A DNA stretch of 64,000 bases from Alphaproteobacteria bacterium (lineage in GTDB: Bacteria; Pseudomonadota; Alphaproteobacteria; JAUHZY01): contig JAUHZY010000001.1 of the NCBI GenBank assembly GCA_030425825.1, positions 310,001 through 374,000 on the forward strand. Reading direction: 5' to 3'. Shown here piece by piece: positions 29,787-46,372 of the stretch. The notes beneath the pieces were generated by a model, which did no database searches, was not told the origin of the DNA, and saw only the letters and a program-made list of their open reading frames with translations. How positions within the stretch are numbered: position 1 is the stretch's first letter; the number at the start of each line of letters is the position of its first letter. A program made the position numbers and the translations under genes.

Positions 29787-30036
29787 GAAGTTAAGAGGAT
29801 GGGAAGAGGAAAGGTTTTAAATGGTCGGGACAGCAGGATTTGAACCCCACTAGCCGAAGCACGGAGTGCGTGGCGTATATCGAAGTTAAGAGGGTGGGAA
29901 GAGGAAAGGTTTTAAATGGTCGGGGCAGCAGGATTTGAACCCCACTAGCCGAAGCACGGAGTGCGTGGCGTATATCGAAGTTAAGAGGGTGGGAAGAGGA
30001 AAGATTTTAAATGGTCGGGACAGCAGGATTTGAACC
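29787..30036 (-). repeat. 95-bp tandem repeats carrying tRNA-Pro 3' ends
   Basis: Two complete 95-bp units (29787-29881, 29882-29976) and a third partial unit (29977-30036). They differ by only a few bases. Each contains, on the minus strand, the last 25 nt of a tRNA-Pro gene including CCA (29822-29846, 29917-29941, 30012-30036). In units 1 and 2 the tRNA sequence is followed by an unrelated stretch with GCACGGAGTGC. In unit 3 it continues into true tRNA sequence. This looks like duplicated integration scars beside the phage attachment site. Confidence 0.85.
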
Positions 30037-30060
30037 TACGACCTCTACACCCCCAGTGTA
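30012..30060 (-). other. Left attachment site: 3' half of tRNA-Pro(GGG)
   Basis: Read on the minus strand it comprises the anticodon stem-loop TACA-CTGGGGG-TGTA (anticodon GGG), variable loop, T arm GTAGG TTCAAAT CCTGC, acceptor strand GTCCCGA and CCA. The D arm and 5' acceptor strand are missing: sequence above 30060 is not tRNA. This is the expected remnant when a tyrosine recombinase inserts at a tRNA 3' half. The integrase gene starts its 3' end 75 nt away. The exact crossover cannot be set without the right end. Confidence 0.8.
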
Positions 30061-30134
30061 TCCTTCGACCTAATAAAGTATATTATATTTCAATGGGTTA
30101 AGTTTTTAGAAAATCAGTTTGTGTAAGAATTGTG

Positions 30135-31193
30135 TTATTTGCCCATTTTTAAGGCTGCCAACATTGCCTTTCTTCTTTCGGATGTTTTGCGGTGAGCATA
30201 GCGTCTTGTTGTCTTAATATCAGCGTGCCCTAGAACTTCCTGAACAAGGTCTAATGGAACGCCCGCATTTACCATCCAAGTTGCGGCTGTATGGCGCAAG
30301 TCATGAAATCTGAAGTCTTTTATCTTCGCCTCTTTTAGGGCAGTCTTGAAGCTTTTCTTGATATCTTTAACTGGCTTTCCGAGATAGGTAAATACATAGT
30401 CTTCATCTTTCGCGTTTTCTGGTCTGTGCTTGGTGAGGTATTCGTAAAACTCCGTCACAATTGGAAGGGTTAGGTTCTTTCCACCAGGTCGTAAGTCTTT
30501 TACTTTGAGGTGTACTTCTTTGTTTTCTAAATCAATGTTTCCCCATCTTAGAGACGTGATGTTGGCGCGCCTCATGCCTGTATACAGCGCACAAAGAATA
30601 ATTCCCTTTAGATGCTCTGGTGAGCAATCAACGAGTTTTTTTGCTTCCTTTGTGGTTAGCCACCTTGTGCGTAAGTCAGGTTCTGCCAGTCTGTGTTTTT
30701 TGTAATTCACATTTGCAACAGAATATTCCCATTTTTCTTTCACGGTGTTTACGAAAGATTGTAGCGTTTTTAGTTCGCGATTGATGGTGAGGGGGCTAAT
30801 AAGGTTCCCGCTTCTTCCTTTTTCTCTCCTTCTTTGAGCAACATAGTTACTAATCATGCTATCTGTTAATTGAGAAAGCAGGGTGGCCTTGCCAAATATT
30901 CTTGTGAAATGACTAAGATGATATTCAATAGTTTCAGCAGAAGATAGATGTTCTGCAACCTCTAAAAGATACCTGGCAGATGCTGCATCAATTGTAATTT
31001 CGGGTTTTTGCTGCCAAAGCTCACCATTTAGGATTTCATTATACCACCTTGCGGCTACCGCTTTTGCCTTTTCTTCTTCAGCAAAGCCCGTGCTTCGTCG
31101 AACCCTGATGGGTGATCTGTTTGGGATTTTGACAGTGAAATATGCTTGCCAGTGCGGACTGTCTGGCCTTTTTCTAATGAGGGATTTTGACAT
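30135..31193 (-). CDS. int: Tyrosine recombinase integrase
   Basis: 352 residues. SAM-like core-binding domain about residues 70-155, catalytic domain from 175. Catalytic residues are visible: Arg208 (GMRRANI), His297 and Arg300 (HDLRHTAATW), His323 (LGHADIKTTR) and Tyr332 (RRYAHRK). It catalyses insertion at, and with the excisionase removal from, tRNA-Pro. Its 5' end overlaps the upstream excisionase gene by 139 nt. No internal Met can serve without losing the arm-binding domain. Confidence 0.96.
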   Translation of the reverse strand: MSKSLIRKRPDSPHWQAYFTVKIPNRSPIRVRRSTGFAEEEKAKAVAARWYNEILNGELWQQKPEITIDAASARYLLEVAEHLSSAETIEYHLSHFTRIFGKATLLSQLTDSMISNYVAQRRREKGRSGNLISPLTINRELKTLQSFVNTVKEKWEYSVANVNYKKHRLAEPDLRTRWLTTKEAKKLVDCSPEHLKGIILCALYTGMRRANITSLRWGNIDLENKEVHLKVKDLRPGGKNLTLPIVTEFYEYLTKHRPENAKDEDYVFTYLGKPVKDIKKSFKTALKEAKIKDFRFHDLRHTAATWMVNAGVPLDLVQEVLGHADIKTTRRYAHRKTSERRKAMLAALKMGK

Positions 31194-37001: not shown

Positions 37002-37553
37002 ATGGGGTGTGTTGTGCGGGTGGCTGTTTTTGTTTTGATTGGGGTGTTTATCTCAATATCTGTGAGGGCGGAAATAAAAGAGACGATTGAGCACAAGTAT
37101 ACCTCGTCAATACAAATGTCTGAATCTGGTCAGGTGGAGTTTTGTTCTATTAATTTTGGGGCTGCTGTTGCGGGGAAAAGTGCAAAAGAGCCAGTTATTG
37201 TTACGGCGTCGTTCAGTACGTTTCCTGAGTTTGTCGCATTAAAGGTGACAGCATCAGAGGGCGAAAAAAAGAAATCTGTAAAAAATGCGGTGTTTTTTGG
37301 CCCCAAAGAAAATTCATCCAATTACTTTAAAGATGTTGGCTTTGCTGATAATGGGGGGTTCCTTGCTGGGGGGGAGATTGGTGGAAAGGCTTCGGAGCTG
37401 ATGTTGGACGCTTTAACGTCGAAAGACTGGCTGCTTCATGTTTCAATTGAGGGTGAGGATGACATAAGTCTTCGAGCGGAGGGTGCTATGGTGTCTCATC
37501 GAAAGCAAATACGGAATTTTGTTAAATGCTCAAAAGGCATGATAAATCAGTAA
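37002..37553 (+). CDS. Secreted cargo protein in the immunity region
   Basis: 183 residues. Signal peptide of about 23 residues (VAVFVLIGVFISISVRAE; a GTG at 37017 could also start it). The mature part is soluble and beta-rich, with two Cys. No known family. It lies between pL and the repressor and points rightward, convergent with the repressor gene. A place outside both lytic operons suggests lysogenic conversion, such as an envelope change or exclusion of other phages. The function is inference. Confidence 0.65.
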   Translation: MGCVVRVAVFVLIGVFISISVRAEIKETIEHKYTSSIQMSESGQVEFCSINFGAAVAGKSAKEPVIVTASFSTFPEFVALKVTASEGEKKKSVKNAVFFGPKENSSNYFKDVGFADNGGFLAGGEIGGKASELMLDALTSKDWLLHVSIEGEDDISLRAEGAMVSHRKQIRNFVKCSKGMINQ

Positions 37554-37738: not shown

Positions 37739-38380
37739 CTACATCCTGCTGCCTTTCCACACCACTTTACCAATGATTTTAATATCATCGGGGTTTACGC
37801 CGTCAATGGGTGGATAAGATGTATTGTCAGAGCATATAATCGCCAGCTTGCGGATAGGGTCCACGCGAACACGCTTTGCCATCAAGCCGTCATCATATTG
37901 CACGATATACACGCCGTCCTTGCCGACCTTCTTCACGGTCATATCGACCAGCACAACGTCATTATGGTTAAGGGTGGGGTACATAGAATCCCCATTTATT
38001 TTAATCGCGACCAGCTTGTTGTGTGGTGCGGATGTCACTTCGCTTAGGAAGTCAGGCTTAAAGGCGAGCTGTGAGACGACATTTTCCTGCGTAATAACGA
38101 GGCCACTTCCAGCAGAAGCCGCCACGTCATAGACGTTAATCATTGTGAGGTCTAGTGGTGCGTGTTCTTTGTTGCTGTCAAATAAAAGATCTTGCGCCTT
38201 TACATTTAGGTGGGGCGCCAATCTTTCCGCCCATTCAACAGAAAGTTTTCTTCCGCCATTTTCAAGCCTAGAGATTTGCACATAGTTAGTGTCCGCTAAG
38301 TCAGCCAGCTTTTGCTGACTTAATCCAACCTTCTTTCTAATTTCACCAAGTTTATTTTTCATACCGAGGATATTACACAT
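37739..38380 (-). CDS. Phage repressor, LexA/CI type (XRE HTH plus S24 peptidase)
   Basis: 213 residues. HTH in residues 17-45 (LSQQKLADLADTNYVQISRL). Self-cleavage site Ala90-Gly91 (VAASAGSG). Catalytic Ser132 in GDSMYP and Lys169 in MAKRV. It should be cleaved when RecA is activated by DNA damage, inducing the prophage. ATG at 38380 has AGGA 9 nt upstream; an ATG six codons on is an alternative. Divergent from the Cro-like gene, with operators between. Confidence 0.94.
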   Translation of the reverse strand: MCNILGMKNKLGEIRKKVGLSQQKLADLADTNYVQISRLENGGRKLSVEWAERLAPHLNVKAQDLLFDSNKEHAPLDLTMINVYDVAASAGSGLVITQENVVSQLAFKPDFLSEVTSAPHNKLVAIKINGDSMYPTLNHNDVVLVDMTVKKVGKDGVYIVQYDDGLMAKRVRVDPIRKLAIICSDNTSYPPIDGVNPDDIKIIGKVVWKGSRM

Positions 38381-38407
38381 ATTTATCCATCCTGGTAATT
38401 GCTGTGT

Positions 38408-38460
38408 TGGCTAAATTTGGCTAAAAATTTTCTTGACATTATTTATCCACAGTGGCTAAA
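38408..38460. promoter_or_regulatory. Right operator cluster, three TGGCTAAA boxes
   Basis: TGGCTAAA at 38408-38415, 38418-38425 and 38453-38460. The first two are 10 bp apart, on one face of the helix. The third overlaps the -10 box of the rightward promoter. Confidence 0.65.
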
Positions 38461-38461
38461 T
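38433..38461 (+). promoter_or_regulatory. Rightward early promoter (pR)
   Basis: TTGACA (38433-38438), 17-bp spacer, CTAAAT (38456-38461). The start point would fall at about 38468, on the first base of the Cro-like ATG, so the message may be leaderless. Confidence 0.65.
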
Positions 38462-38467
38462 ATCAGC

Positions 38468-38701
38468 ATGACATTAAAAGAGTTTATTAATCAGCAGAAA
38501 ATCGCGCTTGAATCCTTTTGCAAAGAGATAGGTCTTGGCGCCAGCACGTCTATTTATAGATACATCCGAGGCGAGCGCATACCCGCGCCTGACGTCATGC
38601 GTCGCATTTACGTTGTAACAGGCGGCAGTGTCCAGCCGAATGATTTTTATGACCTTCCTCCTTTGGATCAAGTGGAGGAAGAGGAGGGGAAGACCACTTG
38701 A
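38468..38701 (+). CDS. Cro-like HTH regulator
   Basis: 77 residues from the ATG at 38468; a frame extension upstream would run through the promoter. HTH-like segment SFCKEIGLGASTSIYRYIRG and GGSVQPNDFYDLPP, the usual C-terminal phrase of phage Cro/YdaS-type proteins. Divergent from the repressor. Acidic tail EEEEGKTT. An attenuator-like double hairpin starts at its 3' end. Confidence 0.8.
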   Translation: MTLKEFINQQKIALESFCKEIGLGASTSIYRYIRGERIPAPDVMRRIYVVTGGSVQPNDFYDLPPLDQVEEEEGKTT

Positions 38702-38720
38702 TCCTGGAGGGATCTTTTTT
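38665..38720 (+). promoter_or_regulatory. Overlapping hairpins with T-run at the end of cro
   Basis: GGATCAAGTGG (38665-38675) pairs perfectly with CCACTTGATCC (38694-38704). The last five bases, GATCC (38700-38704), can instead pair with GGATC (38710-38714), which is followed by six T. The two structures exclude each other, as in an attenuator. Confidence 0.5.
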
Positions 38721-38763
38721 GAGTTGTTTTTATTTTTCATGATTTAATTTTAGGAGGGGAACA

Positions 38764-39204
38764 GTGAACAAAGAAATGTCAAAGGATTCTATTTTTTCCA
38801 GAGAAAAATATCAGGATAACTTAACGACTGCATTGCGCCGTCATATTGGACGCGATGGAGCTTTCACAAAATATAAATTTGCTGATTTGGTGGATGTTAA
38901 AGACCGCACTTTAGAGAGTCATCTTCAAGGTGAATCCATGCCATATAGCCATGTTCTATTTAACTATATGGCGGTATTGCCCATTGAATTTGCGAACGAA
39001 ATCTTAGCACCGCTTAACCTGTCTGTTCAGCGCAATGAACCGCAGCATGTTTCAGATAACACAGCATTGAGGCTGTCGGCTAATACCGCATTTGAATTCG
39101 CAAAGGCTTTAGAAGACGGAAAGATTGATTGCAAGGAGATGGAAGCGTTAAAGCCAATCGTGAGGGAGGTCGTTTCGACGCTTAATGACTGGCTAAATAA
39201 ATAA
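38764..39204 (+). CDS. Phage regulator in the CII position, possible
   Basis: 146 residues. GTG start with AGGAGGGG upstream; an ATG four codons on is possible. The first 85 residues look like a HTH domain (FTKYKFADLVDVKDRTLESH LQGESMPYSH in two parts). The C-terminal 40 residues form an acidic helix. Placed just after cro, where lambda has cII, but no sequence similarity to CII is claimed. Confidence 0.65.
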   Translation: MNKEMSKDSIFSREKYQDNLTTALRRHIGRDGAFTKYKFADLVDVKDRTLESHLQGESMPYSHVLFNYMAVLPIEFANEILAPLNLSVQRNEPQHVSDNTALRLSANTAFEFAKALEDGKIDCKEMEALKPIVREVVSTLNDWLNK

Positions 39205-39221
39205 AACAAGTAGGGGGGAAT

Positions 39222-39671
39222 ATGCTTAGGAAGAAAGAGAAAAAGTTATCTGATGATGATTTAAAAGAGTTAATCATGCCAGATGCCAGGGAATATCCTA
39301 CGTACAACTTCAAAGGCGAGGATAAGTTCACAGTTGAAATAGCTAATTTCCTGAGAAGGAAAACTATTGATGGCGGTCTACAAACTACGTGGTTTCATAT
39401 ACCTAATGAGGGCAAGTCCAACTCAAAAGCTGGTTATAAAAAAAAGGCGATGGGTCGAATTAAAGGTGCGCCTGATTTTGCTTTTATGGGTAAAAAAACA
39501 TGCTTCTGCGTTGAACTAAAAATAATCAACGATCATGGTAAGAAAAGCACGCAAAGCACAAGTCAGAAGCTGTATGGAAAGTGGTGCGAAGACAACGGTG
39601 TTGGTTACTATGTGGCTTATAGCGAAGAGGCTGTGATTAAGGTCTTAGAAGACGAAGGGGTTTTGTCATGA
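39222..39671 (+). CDS. VRR-NUC type nuclease
   Basis: 149 residues. Pattern of VRR-NUC/PD-(D/E)XK enzymes: FTVEIANFLRRK, then FHIPNEGK, GRIKGAPDFAFMG (Asp) and CFCVELKI (E-x-K), Q...W, and GVGYYVAYSEEAV. Phage members are thought to resolve branched DNA. Start ATG with a weak GGGGG upstream. Its end overlaps the replication gene by 4 nt (ATGA). Confidence 0.82.
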   Translation: MLRKKEKKLSDDDLKELIMPDAREYPTYNFKGEDKFTVEIANFLRRKTIDGGLQTTWFHIPNEGKSNSKAGYKKKAMGRIKGAPDFAFMGKKTCFCVELKIINDHGKKSTQSTSQKLYGKWCEDNGVGYYVAYSEEAVIKVLEDEGVLS

Positions 39672-40501
39672 AGAAAAAATCAACGCGCTTTTCTGCCATC
39701 CCATCCAAGGCGGTTTTTGATCCTGATTTGTCGGCGACTTCTTTGAAGGTTTTGGCGGCACTGGGAACGCATTCTGATATGGACGGTTATTGCTGGCCTT
39801 CACATGGTTCATTGGCAGATGATTTGCGTATTTCTAAGAAGACTGTTCGCAGGGGTTTAGCGCAGTTAATCAGCCTTGGTTATATCAAGGCAAGTAAGCG
39901 TGTAAGAACGGATGGCAGCCAAACAAGCAATGGGTATTTTATTTTGTTTGATCAGGCTGTTGAAAAGGCGTCAGAAGAGGTTATTGATACAGATACCCCC
40001 CCTACCCCAAAAATGACCACCCCCCTGGTCAAAAATGACCACCCCCCTGGTCACCTAGATGACCACCCTTATATGAACAAACCCATTGAACTAAATAAAA
40101 AAGAAAAAAATAAAACAAAAAAAGAAAAGTTCTGGGATGGTTTTGAAGAGTTTTGGAAAATCTATACCCCGATCAAGGTGACTAGTGGCAAGCATGTGGC
40201 AAAGGGACCGAAAGGGGACGCCTTTGAACGATACGTTGCTGCGCTGAAAGAGATCAGTCATGTTGATTTGCTTGTTGCATTGCAGTGTTATTTGAACCAT
40301 TGCAGGCAAAACGATCGATACACGTTGCAGGTCTTCAGGTGGCTGAAAGACAGGAAATACCTTGAGGAATGGGACGATGACAACGTTGTTTGTGCTGATC
40401 CCACAGCGCAGCAGAGGCGGCAATCATCACATCCAGCAGCATTGGCGGCACAAAAGCTGATCGAGGCAGAAAAGCGAAGGGAGCAAAGCGAATATGCTTA
40501 A
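39668..40501 (+). CDS. Replication initiator with HTH_36-type winged helix
   Basis: 277 residues. Winged-helix N-terminus (SLADDLRISKKTVRRGLAQL, then LGYIKASKRV), a disordered middle rich in Thr/Pro/Lys, and a C-terminal helical domain (FWKIYTPIKVTSGK; VFRWLKDRKYLEEW) like lambda O-type proteins. The middle segment is encoded by iterons and an A-rich tract, so the origin lies inside the gene, as in lambda O. Confidence 0.85.
   Translation: MKKKSTRFSAIPSKAVFDPDLSATSLKVLAALGTHSDMDGYCWPSHGSLADDLRISKKTVRRGLAQLISLGYIKASKRVRTDGSQTSNGYFILFDQAVEKASEEVIDTDTPPTPKMTTPLVKNDHPPGHLDDHPYMNKPIELNKKEKNKTKKEKFWDGFEEFWKIYTPIKVTSGKHVAKGPKGDAFERYVAALKEISHVDLLVALQCYLNHCRQNDRYTLQVFRWLKDRKYLEEWDDDNVVCADPTAQQRRQSSHPAALAAQKLIEAEKRREQSEYA
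40009..40135 (+). other. Putative phage replication origin (iterons plus A-rich tract)
   Basis: Two exact 22-bp direct repeats (40009-40030 and 40031-40052; core ATGACCACCCCCCTGGTC) and a partial third (40059-40068). Each full unit contains the inverted repeat GACCA-CCCCCC-TGGTC. About 60 bp of nearly pure A (one strand) follow, a plausible unwinding element. Confidence 0.7.
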
Positions 40502-41138
40502 AATCGGTGAACAGATTGACAGGGTCATCCGCGATAACGCACAGGCCACAGGCAATCAGCTTGTTATTCAGAAGAACAAAGGCTTTGAGCTTGTGAAGAT
40601 TTCAAGCGGTGATTACTTGTCGGATGAGAGGGAAGATTTGTTTTTGGAGTTGGAGCGTCAAAGGGATTTGTTATCCAAAAATGACATGATCCAGATTGAT
40701 AATCTTGTTGAGATGTTGCCGAAAATCAATATCACATGGGAGGATGTCAGCGATAATTTAAAACCTTGGAAAGCAAAGACGATGGTAAGGCGCAGGGGGT
40801 TATCACGTGACCTTAGCGATGGAGAGGTTGATATCTTGAAAGAGATCTGTCGCCCATCCACAAAATCAAACCGCTTGGCATACATCTCGAAGCTAACAGC
40901 TTACCGCCCAACTGCCAAAGGCACAGAAGACCAATATACACTGATGTTGAATGATCTTGCTGATGATCTTGCGGGATATTGTGATTATGCGGTGATGAAG
41001 GCCATTGATGATTTGCGTAAGCAGGGTGGCTTCTTTCCATCGGCGAATGAAATCATCCAAGCCGTTAAGTATTACGATCAGACAATGAAATCAATTTTAT
41101 TTATGGGCATGAGGGGGGAAAGACATGAACAAGGATGA
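40494..41138 (+). CDS. Phage replication-module protein, possible helicase loader
   Basis: 214 residues. The C-terminal 100 residues (YCDYAVMKAIDDLRKQGGFF and PSANEI) follow the pattern of phage replication accessory proteins in which helices end in 'FFPSxxEI'. The N-terminal half is charged. It overlaps the initiator by 8 nt, the place of lambda P, so a role in loading the host DnaB helicase is plausible but not shown. Confidence 0.6.
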   Translation: MLKIGEQIDRVIRDNAQATGNQLVIQKNKGFELVKISSGDYLSDEREDLFLELERQRDLLSKNDMIQIDNLVEMLPKINITWEDVSDNLKPWKAKTMVRRRGLSRDLSDGEVDILKEICRPSTKSNRLAYISKLTAYRPTAKGTEDQYTLMLNDLADDLAGYCDYAVMKAIDDLRKQGGFFPSANEIIQAVKYYDQTMKSILFMGMRGERHEQG

Positions 41139-41556
41139 GCTGAAGCAGTGGAAAGAAAGGTTACGTGTTGCTGGTGATGTATGGCTACGCATTAGAGACG
41201 ATCATAAGGCCTGTCTTACAAAAGCAGAGGCGGCAATCTGGCCTGAAGTGATTCATGATCCACGAGATGCTTATAAACATGATGATGTTGAATTTTTCCA
41301 AAGGCCAAGCCCACAGGAAATTGATGATGCGATGGTCATTTATGAGGGGATACGAGAAGTTGATAAAATAGAAGGTGAACAGTCAGGATGCGTGCTATCA
41401 GCGTTTGCTATTGGGTTGCCTTGGGCGGGCATACAGAGAAAGCTGGAGAAAATTGCAAAAAAGAAAATATCACGCAGCACAGCCAATAGACGCCTTGATG
41501 TTGCTATTTTTTATTTAGATAAGGCATTGAAAAATATAGATAATGTTAAAAAGTGA
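41125..41556 (+). CDS. HTH protein in the late-regulator position (DUF6362-like)
   Basis: 143 residues. The C-terminal half holds a HTH-like segment (WAGIQRKLEKIAKKKISRS followed by TANRRLDVAIFYL), as in phage late activators of ArpU/RinA type and DUF6362. It overlaps the previous gene by 14 nt. It lies directly upstream of the promoter-terminator unit at 41575-41723, as lambda Q does, which makes it the best candidate for late gene control. Confidence 0.6.
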   Translation: MNKDELKQWKERLRVAGDVWLRIRDDHKACLTKAEAAIWPEVIHDPRDAYKHDDVEFFQRPSPQEIDDAMVIYEGIREVDKIEGEQSGCVLSAFAIGLPWAGIQRKLEKIAKKKISRSTANRRLDVAIFYLDKALKNIDNVKK

Positions 41557-41574
41557 AAAAAAGTAAGTACAGTT

Positions 41575-41605
41575 TTGACACAAGTGACACAAAAAATGGT
41601 ATGTT
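41575..41605 (+). promoter_or_regulatory. Putative late promoter
   Basis: TTGACA (41575-41580) and TATGTT (41600-41605) with a long 19-bp spacer, which suggests need of an activator. The direct repeat TGACACAA (41576-41583, 41585-41592) overlaps the -35 box and could bind it. Confidence 0.5.
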
Positions 41606-41611
41606 AATTTT

Positions 41612-41723
41612 GAGAATGGGGGAATGCACCCGAAAGGTTGATCGCTTCATTCTCAATTGCTTTTTCAGAAGCTTTTTCATTTTCCGAGCCGCTCCTTCCC
41701 TTTGGGGATCGAGTGGTTTTTTT
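41612..41723 (+). ncRNA. Short late-leader RNA (lambda 6S RNA analogue)
   Basis: About 112 nt from the predicted start to the terminator. GAGAATG (41612-41618) pairs perfectly with CATTCTC (41648-41654), enclosing a GGG...CCC hairpin. A T-rich linker follows, then a strong terminator. No convincing ORF. Transcription beyond it would enter the terminase genes, so it probably serves as control point by read-through. Confidence 0.5.
41689..41723 (+). terminator. Strong intrinsic terminator before the late genes
   Basis: CCGCTC (41689-41694) with GAGTGG (41711-41716), inner stem TCCC/GGGA, then seven T (41717-41723). Confidence 0.8.
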
Positions 41724-41747
41724 ATGTCAAAATTTAAGGATGTTTAG

Positions 41748-42185
41748 ATGATGATGGGCAAGGCTCTTTTGTCAAAGGAAGATCGTGATGATTTGCTGAT
41801 GTCATTGGCGATGGGTGAAAAACCTAGCCACCTTGCAGAGGATTACAGCCTGACCGTTAAGCAGGTCATGAAAATGAGAAACAATTACAAGGCCAAGTTT
41901 TATGATTTTAAAAAGATTCTTGAAGAGCAAGAGGCTAAAGAATCAAAAAGAAACGGTCACACTTCTGACCCGATAATGACAGCCTTGATCGCCCTTAATG
42001 GGAAAGCGAGCGTTTGCCAAAAAACGTATAGGGCATATTTGAACGGTAGACATGTGTCTTATCCGCAATTGGTTGAAGCAGCAAACAATATTCTAACTGA
42101 ACAGAAAAAAGAATTAATCAGATACCCAGGAGTTAATGCCATTTACAGCATTGAAGGGTCTTGTGGTCCAAGCATGAGAATATGA
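41748..42185 (+). CDS. HTH-like protein upstream of the terminase
   Basis: 145 residues. The N-terminal 50 residues look like a homeodomain-type HTH (RDDLLMSLAMGEKPSHLAED, then LTVKQVMKMRNNY). The C-terminal half is mixed. AAGGA lies 7 nt before the ATG. Position suggests a packaging-site recognition factor or regulator. No family assigned. Confidence 0.6.
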   Translation: MMMGKALLSKEDRDDLLMSLAMGEKPSHLAEDYSLTVKQVMKMRNNYKAKFYDFKKILEEQEAKESKRNGHTSDPIMTALIALNGKASVCQKTYRAYLNGRHVSYPQLVEAANNILTEQKKELIRYPGVNAIYSIEGSCGPSMRI

Positions 42186-42188
42186 CAA

Positions 42189-42644
42189 ATGTCTAAAAAA
42201 GGTTTGACGGCAAAGCAAGAGTCTTTTGCTAGAGCTTACGTTGAAAATGGCGGGAACGCTTCCGAGGCATATAGGTCTGCATACAACGCTGAAAACATGA
42301 AGCAGGAGACAATTCACTCGAAGGCTTGTCTTCTTTTGAAGCAGGACAATGTGACGGCAAGGGTTAAGGAGCTTCAAGAAGAAGCCCAGAAAATAGCCGA
42401 CAAGGAGTTTGAAATCACAATCAAAGAGGTGACAAAAAACCTGATTCGATTGTCTAAGGGAGCGGAGGCAGATAGACAGTTTTCACCCGCAATTAAAGCG
42501 CAGGAATTGCTTGGCAAGCACCTTGGCATGTTTGGCAAGGATATAGAGATCGCCGTGAATATAGGTGATTCAATTACTGAAAAAATAAAGATCGCAAATG
42601 AACGACGAAGAGATAATGACAGCAGTCCAGATATGGATGGATGA
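42189..42644 (+). CDS. terS: Terminase small subunit
   Basis: 151 residues, Terminase_2 family. LTAKQESFARAYVENGGNAS and EAYRSAY are the family's N-terminal HTH block. IRLSKGAEADRQFSPAIKAQ leads to the oligomerisation part. It binds the packaging site and recruits the large subunit. No clear Shine-Dalgarno; the gene starts 3 nt after the upstream stop. Its 3' end overlaps terL by 47 nt. Confidence 0.92.
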   Translation: MSKKGLTAKQESFARAYVENGGNASEAYRSAYNAENMKQETIHSKACLLLKQDNVTARVKELQEEAQKIADKEFEITIKEVTKNLIRLSKGAEADRQFSPAIKAQELLGKHLGMFGKDIEIAVNIGDSITEKIKIANERRRDNDSSPDMDG

Positions 42645-43974
42645 TCCTGTCGCGTTTGTTGAAGATGTCTTCGGTGCAACGCCATCAGAATGGCAAGCCA
42701 AAGGGCTTAGGAAGGTTGCTAAAAGTAAAAAGGTTGCGATTCGGTCGGGTCATGGGGTTGGCAAGACGGCTTATTTGTCTTGGTTGATTCTGTGGTGGCT
42801 GTGTACACGTCACCCTGCGAAAGTTGCTTGCACTGCACCGACATCACATCAGTTGAAAGACGTGTTGTGGTCTGAGGTTAAGAAGTGGCACGGCAAGATG
42901 CCAAAAGAATTACGTGACATGATTACGATCAATGAGACACGCATTGAAATAAAAGGATTAGATAATTTTGCGGTAGCACGTACGGCAAGACGTGACCAGC
43001 CAGAGGCATTTCAGGGGTTTCACAGTGAAAACATGCTGTTCATTGTTGATGAGGCTTCAGGTGTTGAAGACATCATCTTTGAGGTGGGTCAGGGCGCAAT
43101 GTCAACAAAGGGTGCAAAGACCGTTATGACAGGAAACCCGACAAGGCGGTCGGGATACTTCTTTGAGGCGTTCCATACAGCACGCAAGTTTTGGGAAACC
43201 TTTAAGGTCTCCTGCGAAGACGTGCCGACGGTTGATAAAGATTTCATCGAAGAGATGAAGGAAAAATATGGCGAGGATTCTAATGTTTATCGCATTCGTG
43301 TTCTTGGCGACTTTCCAGACAGTGAAGATGATGTTGTCATTCCCATGCACCTTGTCGAGTCAGCCGTTCATCGTGACATTGAAACACTTAGTTCGGCAGC
43401 CGTTATTTGGGGATTGGATGTTGCAAGGTTTGGCAGTGATAGATCTGCTCTTGCTAAGCGACAAGGGAACGCAATCACCGAGCCAATTAAATCATGGCAG
43501 GGAAAAGACCTGATGCAGCTTTGCGGAATCGTTAAGGCGGAGTACGACAAAACGCACGAAAACTACAAGCCTAAGATGATTTGTGTTGATGTGATTGGGC
43601 TTGGAGCAGGGGTAGTGGACCGCTTGAGAGAGTTAGGCTTGCCTGTTTACGGCGTCAATGTCGCAGAAGTGCCGAGTGTTGGTAAGCGTTATCTCAAGCT
43701 AAAAGATGATTTGTGGTGGCACATGCGTGAATGGTTCGAGGCACGTGATGTCAAGATGCCCGAAGACAAAGAGCTGATCGCAGAGCTTTGCACACCGAAA
43801 TACAATTTTACGTCAAACGGTAAGCTGAAAATCGAAAGCAAAGACGAGATGAAGAAGCGTGGCGTTGCATCACCAGACCTTGCAGAAGCGATGATGCTTA
43901 CGTTCGCTTGGGGCAGTGATTCGGTCAGTGATTGGTCGAAGCCAGTAAAACAAGATTTACGCTGGATTGTTTAA
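42598..43974 (+). CDS. terL: Terminase large subunit (packaging ATPase/nuclease)
   Basis: 458 residues. Walker A SGHGVGKT at residues 50-57, Walker B MLFIVDEA near 145, coupling segment MTGNPTR, and nuclease Asp in IWGLDVARFGSD and VDVIGLGAGV (RNase H-like). It translocates DNA into the prohead and cuts it. Length is normal for headful-type enzymes. Confidence 0.96.
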   Translation: MNDEEIMTAVQIWMDDPVAFVEDVFGATPSEWQAKGLRKVAKSKKVAIRSGHGVGKTAYLSWLILWWLCTRHPAKVACTAPTSHQLKDVLWSEVKKWHGKMPKELRDMITINETRIEIKGLDNFAVARTARRDQPEAFQGFHSENMLFIVDEASGVEDIIFEVGQGAMSTKGAKTVMTGNPTRRSGYFFEAFHTARKFWETFKVSCEDVPTVDKDFIEEMKEKYGEDSNVYRIRVLGDFPDSEDDVVIPMHLVESAVHRDIETLSSAAVIWGLDVARFGSDRSALAKRQGNAITEPIKSWQGKDLMQLCGIVKAEYDKTHENYKPKMICVDVIGLGAGVVDRLRELGLPVYGVNVAEVPSVGKRYLKLKDDLWWHMREWFEARDVKMPEDKELIAELCTPKYNFTSNGKLKIESKDEMKKRGVASPDLAEAMMLTFAWGSDSVSDWSKPVKQDLRWIV

Positions 43975-44347: not shown

Positions 44348-46372
44348 ATGAAAACTGGAAAACTTACCAAAGACGAGCTGAAAGCCAAGGTATCGAAAGC
44401 TATTGATGACGCCAAATCATACGCTGATGGCACGTTGAAGGCCGAGCGCAAAAGGGCAATGGATTACTATTTTGGCAAGCCTTTTGGTGATGAGGTCGAG
44501 GGGCGCAGCAAAGTTGTGTCAACGGATGTTGCAGAGGTGATCGAGTGGATTCTGCCCGACTTGATGAAGATATTTACCAGCACAAACAGCCCTGTCAACT
44601 TTGATCCAGAGGGGCCAGAAGATGAAGCTGGCGCAAAACAAGCAACCGATTATGTCAATTATATTTTTACCAAGGAAAACACGTCTTTTCTTGTGCTTTA
44701 CACGTGGTTCAAGGATGCCCTTTTACAGAAGAACGGCGTTGTTAAATATGGCTGGCAAACAAAAGAGAAGGTTAAAGAAGAAACCTTTCCTGAAGTCAAT
44801 GACATGGCTTTTGGCGTGTTTATGGATGAGATCGGAGACGGCAAAGAAGATGAAAACGGCAATAAGGTTGAAGTTGTAGATCACACAGAAACAGAATCAG
44901 AACCTGACGAGTTTGGTGTTGTTAACAAGTTTCACAGGTTTACTGTTCGTACGACAAAAAAGAAAGACACTTTAAGAGTTTACAATTTACCGCCTGAAGA
45001 GTTCTTGATTGACAGTGGCGCGAAGACAATTGAAGACGCAACATTTGTTGCACATTATTGTGAGAAATCACGATCCGATCTAATCGAGATGGGTTATAGC
45101 CGCAAAGAGGTTGACGAGCTGACATCAGATGATGCTTTAAGCATCGATGAATCAAGCCAATCGCGGGAATTGTATGATGATTGGGATGATAATGATCGAG
45201 ATGACCAAACAACAAAAGTGCCTGTTTACGAATGTTATATGAACATTGATCTTGATGATGACGGCATTGCAGAGCTGAATCGTATTGTTGTCGCGGGTGG
45301 TCAACGTAAGGTAATGGAGGTTGAGAAGGCAGAAGAAAAACCTTTTGCGTCAATTTGTCCTGTGCCAACACCACATGAGTTCTACGGTCAATCCGTTGCC
45401 GATCTTGTTATGGACCTGCAAAAGATCAAGTCAACGATATTGCGCCAGATTCTAGATAACATGTATCTGACAAATAACAGCCGCAATGTTGTTGTTGATG
45501 GGCAAGTAAACCTTGACGACCTGATGACCAATCGTCCTGGCGGTGTTGTTCGAGCCAAAAGCATTGGAGCCATTCAGCCTCTTGTTACACAGCCATTATC
45601 ACAACAAGCCTTTGGCATGTTGGAGCAGATGAATAATATCCGTGAAGAGCGCACAGGCGTAACAAAATATACGCAGGGCATGGATGCTGACACGTTAAAC
45701 AAAACGGCATCAGGCATTAACCAGATTATGAACGCCAGCCAGCAGCGCATTGAGTTGATTGCGCGTATCTTTGCAGAAACTGGCGTGAAGCGTTTATTTA
45801 AGTTGTTGTTGAATACGGTCGTTAGAAATGCGGACTCGCAAAAATCAGAAATGATACGGCTTCGCAATCAATGGGTTGAAATGAGTCCTGGCCAGTGGGA
45901 TCCAGATATGGACTTGACCGTCCAAGTCGGGCTTGGCACAGGGAATAAAGATCAAAACCTTGCGCATCTTAATAATATTTTGAATGTTCAAAAAGAAGCG
46001 ATTGCCGTGCAAGGTGGTGTTGATGGTCCGTTGACAAGCGTTAAATATCTACATCACACGATGGAAAAAATCATTGAGAATAGCGGGCAGAAATCAACAG
46101 AGATGTTTATGCCTGAACTTGAAAGCTATCAACCGCCACCACCACAGCAAGAGCCGCCATCACCAGAGATGATGAAGGCGCAGGCGGAAATCGCCGACAT
46201 GAACAAAAGAACAGATGCAGAAATTGCAATTAAGGTTCGAGAGCAGGATCGAAAAGATAGAGAACTTGCTTTGAAAGCAGAACAAATGAACAGAGAAACC
46301 GCACTAGAGGTCCAGAAAATTGCAACTAACGCCCCAGGTGGGGACGGAAATATCCCAGACGTTTTTAGGTAA
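44348..46372 (+). CDS. Portal protein
   Basis: 674 residues, typical of podovirus portals of the P22/SU10 class. STDVAEVIEWILPDLMKIFT and the following LFTSTNSPV-like part lie at the N-terminus. HEFYGQSVADLVMDLQKIKS and ILRQILDNMYLTNN mark the clip/stem region. The C-terminus (residues 590-674) is a long Glu/Gln-rich helix. The portal dodecamer is the DNA gate of the capsid. Confidence 0.9.
   Translation: MKTGKLTKDELKAKVSKAIDDAKSYADGTLKAERKRAMDYYFGKPFGDEVEGRSKVVSTDVAEVIEWILPDLMKIFTSTNSPVNFDPEGPEDEAGAKQATDYVNYIFTKENTSFLVLYTWFKDALLQKNGVVKYGWQTKEKVKEETFPEVNDMAFGVFMDEIGDGKEDENGNKVEVVDHTETESEPDEFGVVNKFHRFTVRTTKKKDTLRVYNLPPEEFLIDSGAKTIEDATFVAHYCEKSRSDLIEMGYSRKEVDELTSDDALSIDESSQSRELYDDWDDNDRDDQTTKVPVYECYMNIDLDDDGIAELNRIVVAGGQRKVMEVEKAEEKPFASICPVPTPHEFYGQSVADLVMDLQKIKSTILRQILDNMYLTNNSRNVVVDGQVNLDDLMTNRPGGVVRAKSIGAIQPLVTQPLSQQAFGMLEQMNNIREERTGVTKYTQGMDADTLNKTASGINQIMNASQQRIELIARIFAETGVKRLFKLLLNTVVRNADSQKSEMIRLRNQWVEMSPGQWDPDMDLTVQVGLGTGNKDQNLAHLNNILNVQKEAIAVQGGVDGPLTSVKYLHHTMEKIIENSGQKSTEMFMPELESYQPPPPQQEPPSPEMMKAQAEIADMNKRTDAEIAIKVREQDRKDRELALKAEQMNRETALEVQKIATNAPGGDGNIPDVFR

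Follow-up and report, generated by a model that had tools for sequence, protein, structure and literature searches.

The stretch at 41557-41747 of the window (the whole 64,000-nucleotide piece of DNA analysed here) is best read as the late switch of a prophage, a Q-type arrangement of promoter, Q-binding element, pause element and terminator (pR'-QBE-pause-tR'), and we put the probability of this reading at about 0.84. The gene directly upstream belongs, as an outlying member, to the DUF6362 family; its product most likely lets RNA polymerase pass the terminator and so turns the late genes on. The evidence comes from the anatomy of the stretch, from the family and predicted fold of the upstream protein, and from a layout that recurs downstream of the same gene in other genomes and phages.

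A promoter, a repeat and a terminator between early and late genes

The prophage lies within the window, in a host genome of 1.95 Mb. Its left part includes, both on the minus strand, an integrase gene (30135-31193) and the gene of an S24/LexA-type repressor (37739-38380; PF00717 and PF01381). Divergent from the repressor gene, an early operon runs on the plus strand from 38399 to 41556, and its last gene (41125-41556) encodes the 143-aa DUF6362/phrog_6836 protein proposed as a 21Q-type late antiterminator. The promoter/terminator stretch is the gap that separates this early block from the late block, also on the plus strand, which opens with a 145-aa gene lacking a confident family (41748-42185) and continues from 42189 onwards with genes for the terminase small subunit (42189-42644; PF03592, phrog_51), the terminase large subunit (42598-43974; PF03237, phrog_2), an SU10-type portal protein (44348-46372; PF23899, E 7e-217), the major capsid protein and the adaptor. 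An initial annotation of this DNA had pointed to a helix-turn-helix (HTH) gene directly upstream, in the place that Q occupies in lambda. The gene is indeed so placed, where the early genes give way to those for terminase and head, with its stop codon at 41556, the -35 element starting at 41575, and terminase, portal and capsid genes downstream.

Two features of the left part may be recorded here. A tRNA-like fragment on the minus strand (30020-30083; Rfam tRNA, 32.5 bits, missed by ARAGORN) adjoins the integrase gene at 30135 and is a candidate for the prophage attachment site. A 183-aa open reading frame on the plus strand (37002-37553), with a signal-peptide-like start and no Pfam match, adjoins the repressor gene and is possibly an accessory gene expressed in lysogeny.

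The promoter pairs a TTGACA -35 element (41575-41580) with a -10 hexamer TATGTT (41600-41605) across the 19-bp spacer first annotated; a preceding TGG makes the hexamer an extended -10 as well (TGG-TATGTT, TGGTATGTT, 41597-41605), a feature absent from the initial annotation. The direct repeat reported earlier proves to be two exact copies of TGACACAA at a 9-bp period, one (41576-41583) overlapping the -35 element and the other (41585-41592) lying between -35 and -10. These copies are the proposed half-sites of a Q-binding element. At the predicted transcript start stands a -10-like element, GAGAAT followed by GGG (GAGAATGGG, 41612-41620), 12 nt past the start of the -10; the offset is the one seen in DUF6362 relatives, and the element is a putative site of sigma-dependent pausing. 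By the score used here, this promoter and five others share the top rank when all 52,320 possible -10/-35 pairs of the window are compared. When 41557-41747 is shuffled 2000 times, TTGACA with a properly spaced extended -10 arises in 0.05% of the shuffles and an 8-bp direct repeat, wherever it may lie, in 4%; none has such a repeat just 5' of an extended -10.

The transcript predicted from this promoter is structured. Folding of 41612-41730 gives -41.4 kcal/mol, against -30.0 +/- 3.5 for shuffles (z -3.3; 0 of 200 as good). It begins with a 5' leader hairpin (41612-41654; -17.5 kcal/mol, z -2.8) and leads to an intrinsic terminator, the proposed tR' (41686-41723), in which a stem with a 2x2 internal loop and a UUUG loop (41686-41719) carries a U7 tail (41717-41723); its -20.4 kcal/mol (z -4.3) is reached by 0 of 200 shuffles. 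The 3' end of the U-run is 24 nt ahead of the ATG at 41748. A structured stretch ending in a strong terminator, close before the first late gene, had been part of the initial annotation and stands. Promoter, repeat and terminator are all beyond chance. A generic scanner missed both the promoter and the terminator because it accepts spacers of 16-18 only and terminator stems without an internal loop. The 5' hairpin starts at the predicted transcript start, and the -10-like sequence forms part of its 5' arm. A 64-aa open reading frame over the stretch (41553-41747) has no PHROG or Pfam match and was rejected as a gene.

As the stretch carries a promoter and a terminator and folds into two stable hairpins, it could also be an independent small-RNA gene, its 112-nt hairpin RNA acting in trans and the late genes having a promoter of their own. 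Terminated late leaders can double as regulators, with a precedent in IsrK, from a late region of Gifsy-1 (PMC4825925). We think this very improbable for the present stretch: no Rfam family matches it, a search for DNA similarity in the phage collection gave chance-level matches only, the terminator leaves a mere 24 nt before the first late gene, and what persists among relatives is the promoter, the -10-like element and a hairpin, the leader sequence itself being variable.

Family and predicted fold of the upstream protein

By its profile matches the 143-aa protein is an outlying member of DUF6362/phrog_6836. It matches the Pfam model of DUF6362 (PF19889) at E 9e-6 with 26.4 bits, which is below the curated cut-off of 31, and phrog_6836 at E 0.0073; all 53 aligned DUF6362 members match phrog_6836, a family labelled "unknown function." Residues 65-139, the C-terminal half, also match phrog_79, "anti-termination protein Q-like" (E 6e-4), which few other DUF6362 members reach (2 of 53). 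This PHROG family holds the 21Q type, because E. coli K-12 QuuD hits it at 1e-52 and hits the PDB sequence of 21Q at 7.6e-7. Comparison by hhalign of the window protein with a profile of seven 21Q relatives gives E 7.6e-5 with 28% identity over 72 columns, and comparison of the whole DUF6362 profile with the 21Q alignment gives a weak E 0.015. Judged by these alignments, the sequence relationship to 21Q is remote rather than close.

Other searches mark out the neighborhood of the family. Against PDB sequences the window protein has no match, and the DUF6362 profile has only weak ones, to HTH domains of the sigma4/LuxR type. Exact-peptide scans of genome and viral contigs, and tblastn against phages, found no close relatives of the window protein. 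A Pfam scan returned DUF6362 only, with no GafA-type family, and the protein does not match the lambda Q family of Pfam at E 0.01; its two cysteines are widely spaced, an arrangement that does not suit the zinc finger of lambda Q.

The fold adds to the sequence evidence. An AlphaFold model based on an alignment of 67 sequences (pLDDT 84, pTM 0.72; a model made without alignment, at pLDDT 45, was set aside) opens with a long helix, goes on to a poorly determined loop that includes a short helix (31-62), and closes with four helices ending in the HTH, in the order described for 21Q (PMC6606751). The nozzle region is modelled with low confidence (pLDDT 52-66). Foldseek against the PDB ranks 21Q first (6p18; E 0.08, probability 0.99, TM 0.55/0.51). 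In VIA, ranks 1-5 are all 21Q, with Z 8.7-10.0 over residues 1-143, followed by sigma region 4 domains (at most 7.2) and AlpA (6.0); such Z-scores for small helical proteins are moderate and of limited weight by themselves, and they carry weight here because they are consistent with the sequence evidence and with the position of the gene. Together with the layout described below, this leads us to see in DUF6362 a predicted family of late antiterminators of the 21Q type, carried by prophages of Pseudomonadota.

The layout downstream of other DUF6362 genes

The arrangement found in the window is conserved with the gene. DUF6362 is common: a class sample of 385 genomes has 65 with a match, and a phylum sample of 398 has 50 (33 of these outside the class). 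For comparison we took the DNA 3' of the stop codon in 84 non-redundant DUF6362 members, with other gene ends from the same loci as control. One locus, L222 (APSE-7), was left out of the analysis because its flank runs into a toxin cassette. A strong terminator lies within 200 nt past the stop in 25 of the 84; the corresponding rates are 5.3% at control gene ends and 5.5% in shuffled sequence. At least two coding-strand copies of GACA occur in 36%, against 6.9% of controls, and the reverse complement TGTC is not in excess, so the signal is strand-specific. A -10-like hexamer stands 11-12 nt past the -10 start in 14 of 23 distinct GACA promoters, where nearly all other offsets have counts of 0-2. 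The bipartite pattern is present in 17/84 cases and 13/683 controls, for a Fisher p of 4e-10 that is optimistic because the pattern was first spotted in the same data that were counted.

A test set of 19 later loci bears this out. With the terminator criterion kept, 14 of the 19 have a terminator (74%; p 1e-12). A looser bipartite pattern is found in 8/19 against 27/683 (p 9e-7), a partly blind comparison, the pattern having been partly chosen afterwards. The strict pattern with GG is present at three of the 19 loci only, because other clades have CGCG or CACGG in its place.

These counts bear on two further explanations. Terminators are common at operon ends, and the one in the window might merely close the early operon, the late genes living on leaky read-through and the upstream protein doing something else; this we regard as highly unlikely, given that terminators follow 14 of 19 test-set DUF6362 genes, beyond an intervening promoter, but only about 5% of genes otherwise, and given the predicted 21Q fold of the protein. 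Somewhat less improbable, though still unlikely, is that the DUF6362 protein is an ordinary activator that recruits polymerase via the repeats, with a terminator that just ends early transcripts or damps leakage. Many relatives have GACA copies at -35, -50 and -65, the nearest spaced 17 bp from the -10, which would fit activator sites, and a sigma4-like HTH in the C-terminal half suits activators as well. The promoter, however, is upstream of the terminator, both here and in many relatives, so that activation alone would yield a short RNA. Activation also has no role for a -10-like element at fixed distance or for the full-length 21Q fold, and the TTGACA and extended -10 of the window look functional without an activator. 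Antitermination of the Q type accordingly remains the preferred reading.

Alignment of the stretch in related phages, a step suggested in the initial annotation, succeeds for one clade of viruses. An alignment program places GACACAAGTGACA, TATGTT, GAGAAT and GGGG of the window on corresponding columns of this clade, a match that covers the repeat, the -10, the -10-like element and the GGGG. Directly 3' of the gene, its 67 distinct viral sequences, related to L044, show GCAACA, GACA-N5-AACA, TATTCC, CAAGAT, GGGGAGAG, a hairpin and TTT; the GACA/AACA pair of the clade has a 9-bp period, as does the TGACACAA pair of the window. A subclade of the L044 relatives keeps promoter and -10-like element and has the first hairpin replaced by a different one with a T-rich tail. 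(The swapped hairpin, CGCCCGCGA...TCGCGGGCG-TTGTCGTTT, is seen at L349, L350, L351, L361, L374, L375, L382, L386 and L387.) Relatives of the window's terminase, in 80 viral loci at 53-62% identity, have no DUF6362 gene upstream. The switch is therefore modular, and its conservation is argued from other phages that carry DUF6362 rather than from sister phages.

Several observations from the same loci concern neighboring sequence. At L396, L399, L405 and L406 the late -10 overlaps the DUF6362 stop codon, and some letters belong to both promoter and gene. Among 62 first large downstream genes, 23 (L033-L207) encode a ParB-like nuclease-DNA methyltransferase fusion, with which the late operon opens instead of a terminase. 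A conserved element, GGGTCCTTCCTGGC...TATGC/GGGGGCGG..., separates the DUF6362 leader from the ParB or terminase genes at L034, L037, L045, L212, L217 and L393. The same GGGTCCTTCCTGGC element is found at L407:2230-2266 with L409:1-40, and the record of Rhodobacter phage RcDormio, whose homologue of the DUF6362 gene is gene 69, ends and begins exactly inside it; the element is therefore probably the cos site of these phages.

The proposed switch and its known counterparts

In the scheme that we infer, RNA polymerase would start at a constitutive late promoter (41575-41605) and pause on the -10-like GAGAATGGG, because sigma region 2 would rebind it there. Without Q it would stop at 41717-41723 and release a leader RNA of roughly 112 nt. 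Inactivation of the repressor (37739-38380) would turn on the early operon, and with it synthesis of the DUF6362 protein. The sigma4-like HTH of the protein would bind both TGACACAA half-sites, and the protein would load onto the paused polymerase, its N-terminal loop (residues about 31-62) entering the RNA exit channel as a nozzle. Traveling with polymerase, it would keep the terminator and later hairpins from terminating, and the terminase, portal and capsid genes would then be transcribed. It is conceivable, more tentatively, that the DUF6362 protein replaces sigma region 4 at the -35 element, raising initiation at the late promoter before riding along as antiterminator. The idea arises because half-sites of this family frequently fall on the -35 hexamer (GACA at -35, 17 bp from the -10, with further copies 15 bp upstream). 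The window also departs from phage 21, with half-sites one turn further upstream, over the -35, and a longer leader that has an additional hairpin, and these differences would allow the protein to act on initiation too.

Q-dependent antitermination, the pause element and the binding element are textbook matters (PMC6606751, PMC9371919), and there are known precedents in AlpA (PMC7969949) and Caulobacter GafZ (PMC11150451), unrelated-looking antiterminators of which GafZ is already alphaproteobacterial. Sinorhizobium prophages are said to carry "transcription antiterminators" (PMC12429752). What is new is the assignment of the DUF6362 family, together with its cis-elements. A literature search found no paper naming DUF6362, and in isolated Rhodobacter phages the sole annotation of the gene is "helix-turn-helix DNA binding domain protein"; the useful part is thus that a widespread family without a name would gain a function. 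If it is true, late-gene control becomes predictable for many Pseudomonadota prophages, the 21Q mechanism reaches well past enterobacterial phages, and genome readers gain a signature: a DUF6362 stop codon, GACA repeats, a -10, a -10-like element and a terminator.

The initial annotation had proposed a late switch like lambda pR'/tR' with a Q-like protein. Sequence, fold, place and recurrent layout support it computationally, with the amendment that the switch is nearer to phage 21 than to lambda. The window protein is like 21Q (PDB 6P18, 6P19, 6JNX; PMC6606751) in its predicted full-length fold, with remote sequence similarity. At pR'21, in a record annotated from experiments (OL657228.1), the Q stop codon is followed by -35, two half-sites, -10, start, pause element and terminator; both loci show TTGACA as the -35, two half-sites in direct orientation (proposed ones in the window), a -10-like element where the transcript begins or is predicted to begin, and a terminator ahead of the late genes. 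They differ in that the half-sites of phage 21 are ATTGAGCA/AATGAGCA at an 8-bp period inside the spacer, whereas the TGACACAA pair of the window has a 9-bp period with its first copy over the -35. Relative to the presumed start, the window's half-sites span about -36 to -20 and those of 21Q about -27 to -12, which puts the former about one helical turn further upstream. The leader is about 112 nt with an extra hairpin in the window and about 50 nt in phage 21, and the first late genes are for terminase and head in the one, for lysis in the other. Lambda Q with pR'-tR' shares the logic (Q gene, promoter, pause, short terminated leader RNA, late genes), but lambda Q folds differently and contains a zinc finger (PMC6606751, PMC9371919), and the window protein has no Pfam match to it.

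AlpA of Pseudomonas aeruginosa (PMC7969949, PMC9371919; PDB 7XYB) resembles the proposed switch in an HTH that binds an element within the promoter, a -10-like pause, a nozzle and a 21Q-like fold. The model of the window protein matches it at Z 6.0, no sequence similarity between them was found here, and AlpA differs in having a single site (GGGACG), extra helices and a lysis program under its control. GafZ, from the gene transfer agent of Caulobacter crescentus (PMC11150451), is set apart from the window protein by the Pfam scan, which gives no link between the families, and by the form of its element, palindromic where the window has a direct repeat; it also works with GafY and IHF, and its terminator comes after the first gene. 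It is nonetheless an alphaproteobacterial antiterminator with a sigma-like HTH and an element between -10 and -35, and it opens transcription of head genes (PMC11150451), as we propose for the switch in the window.
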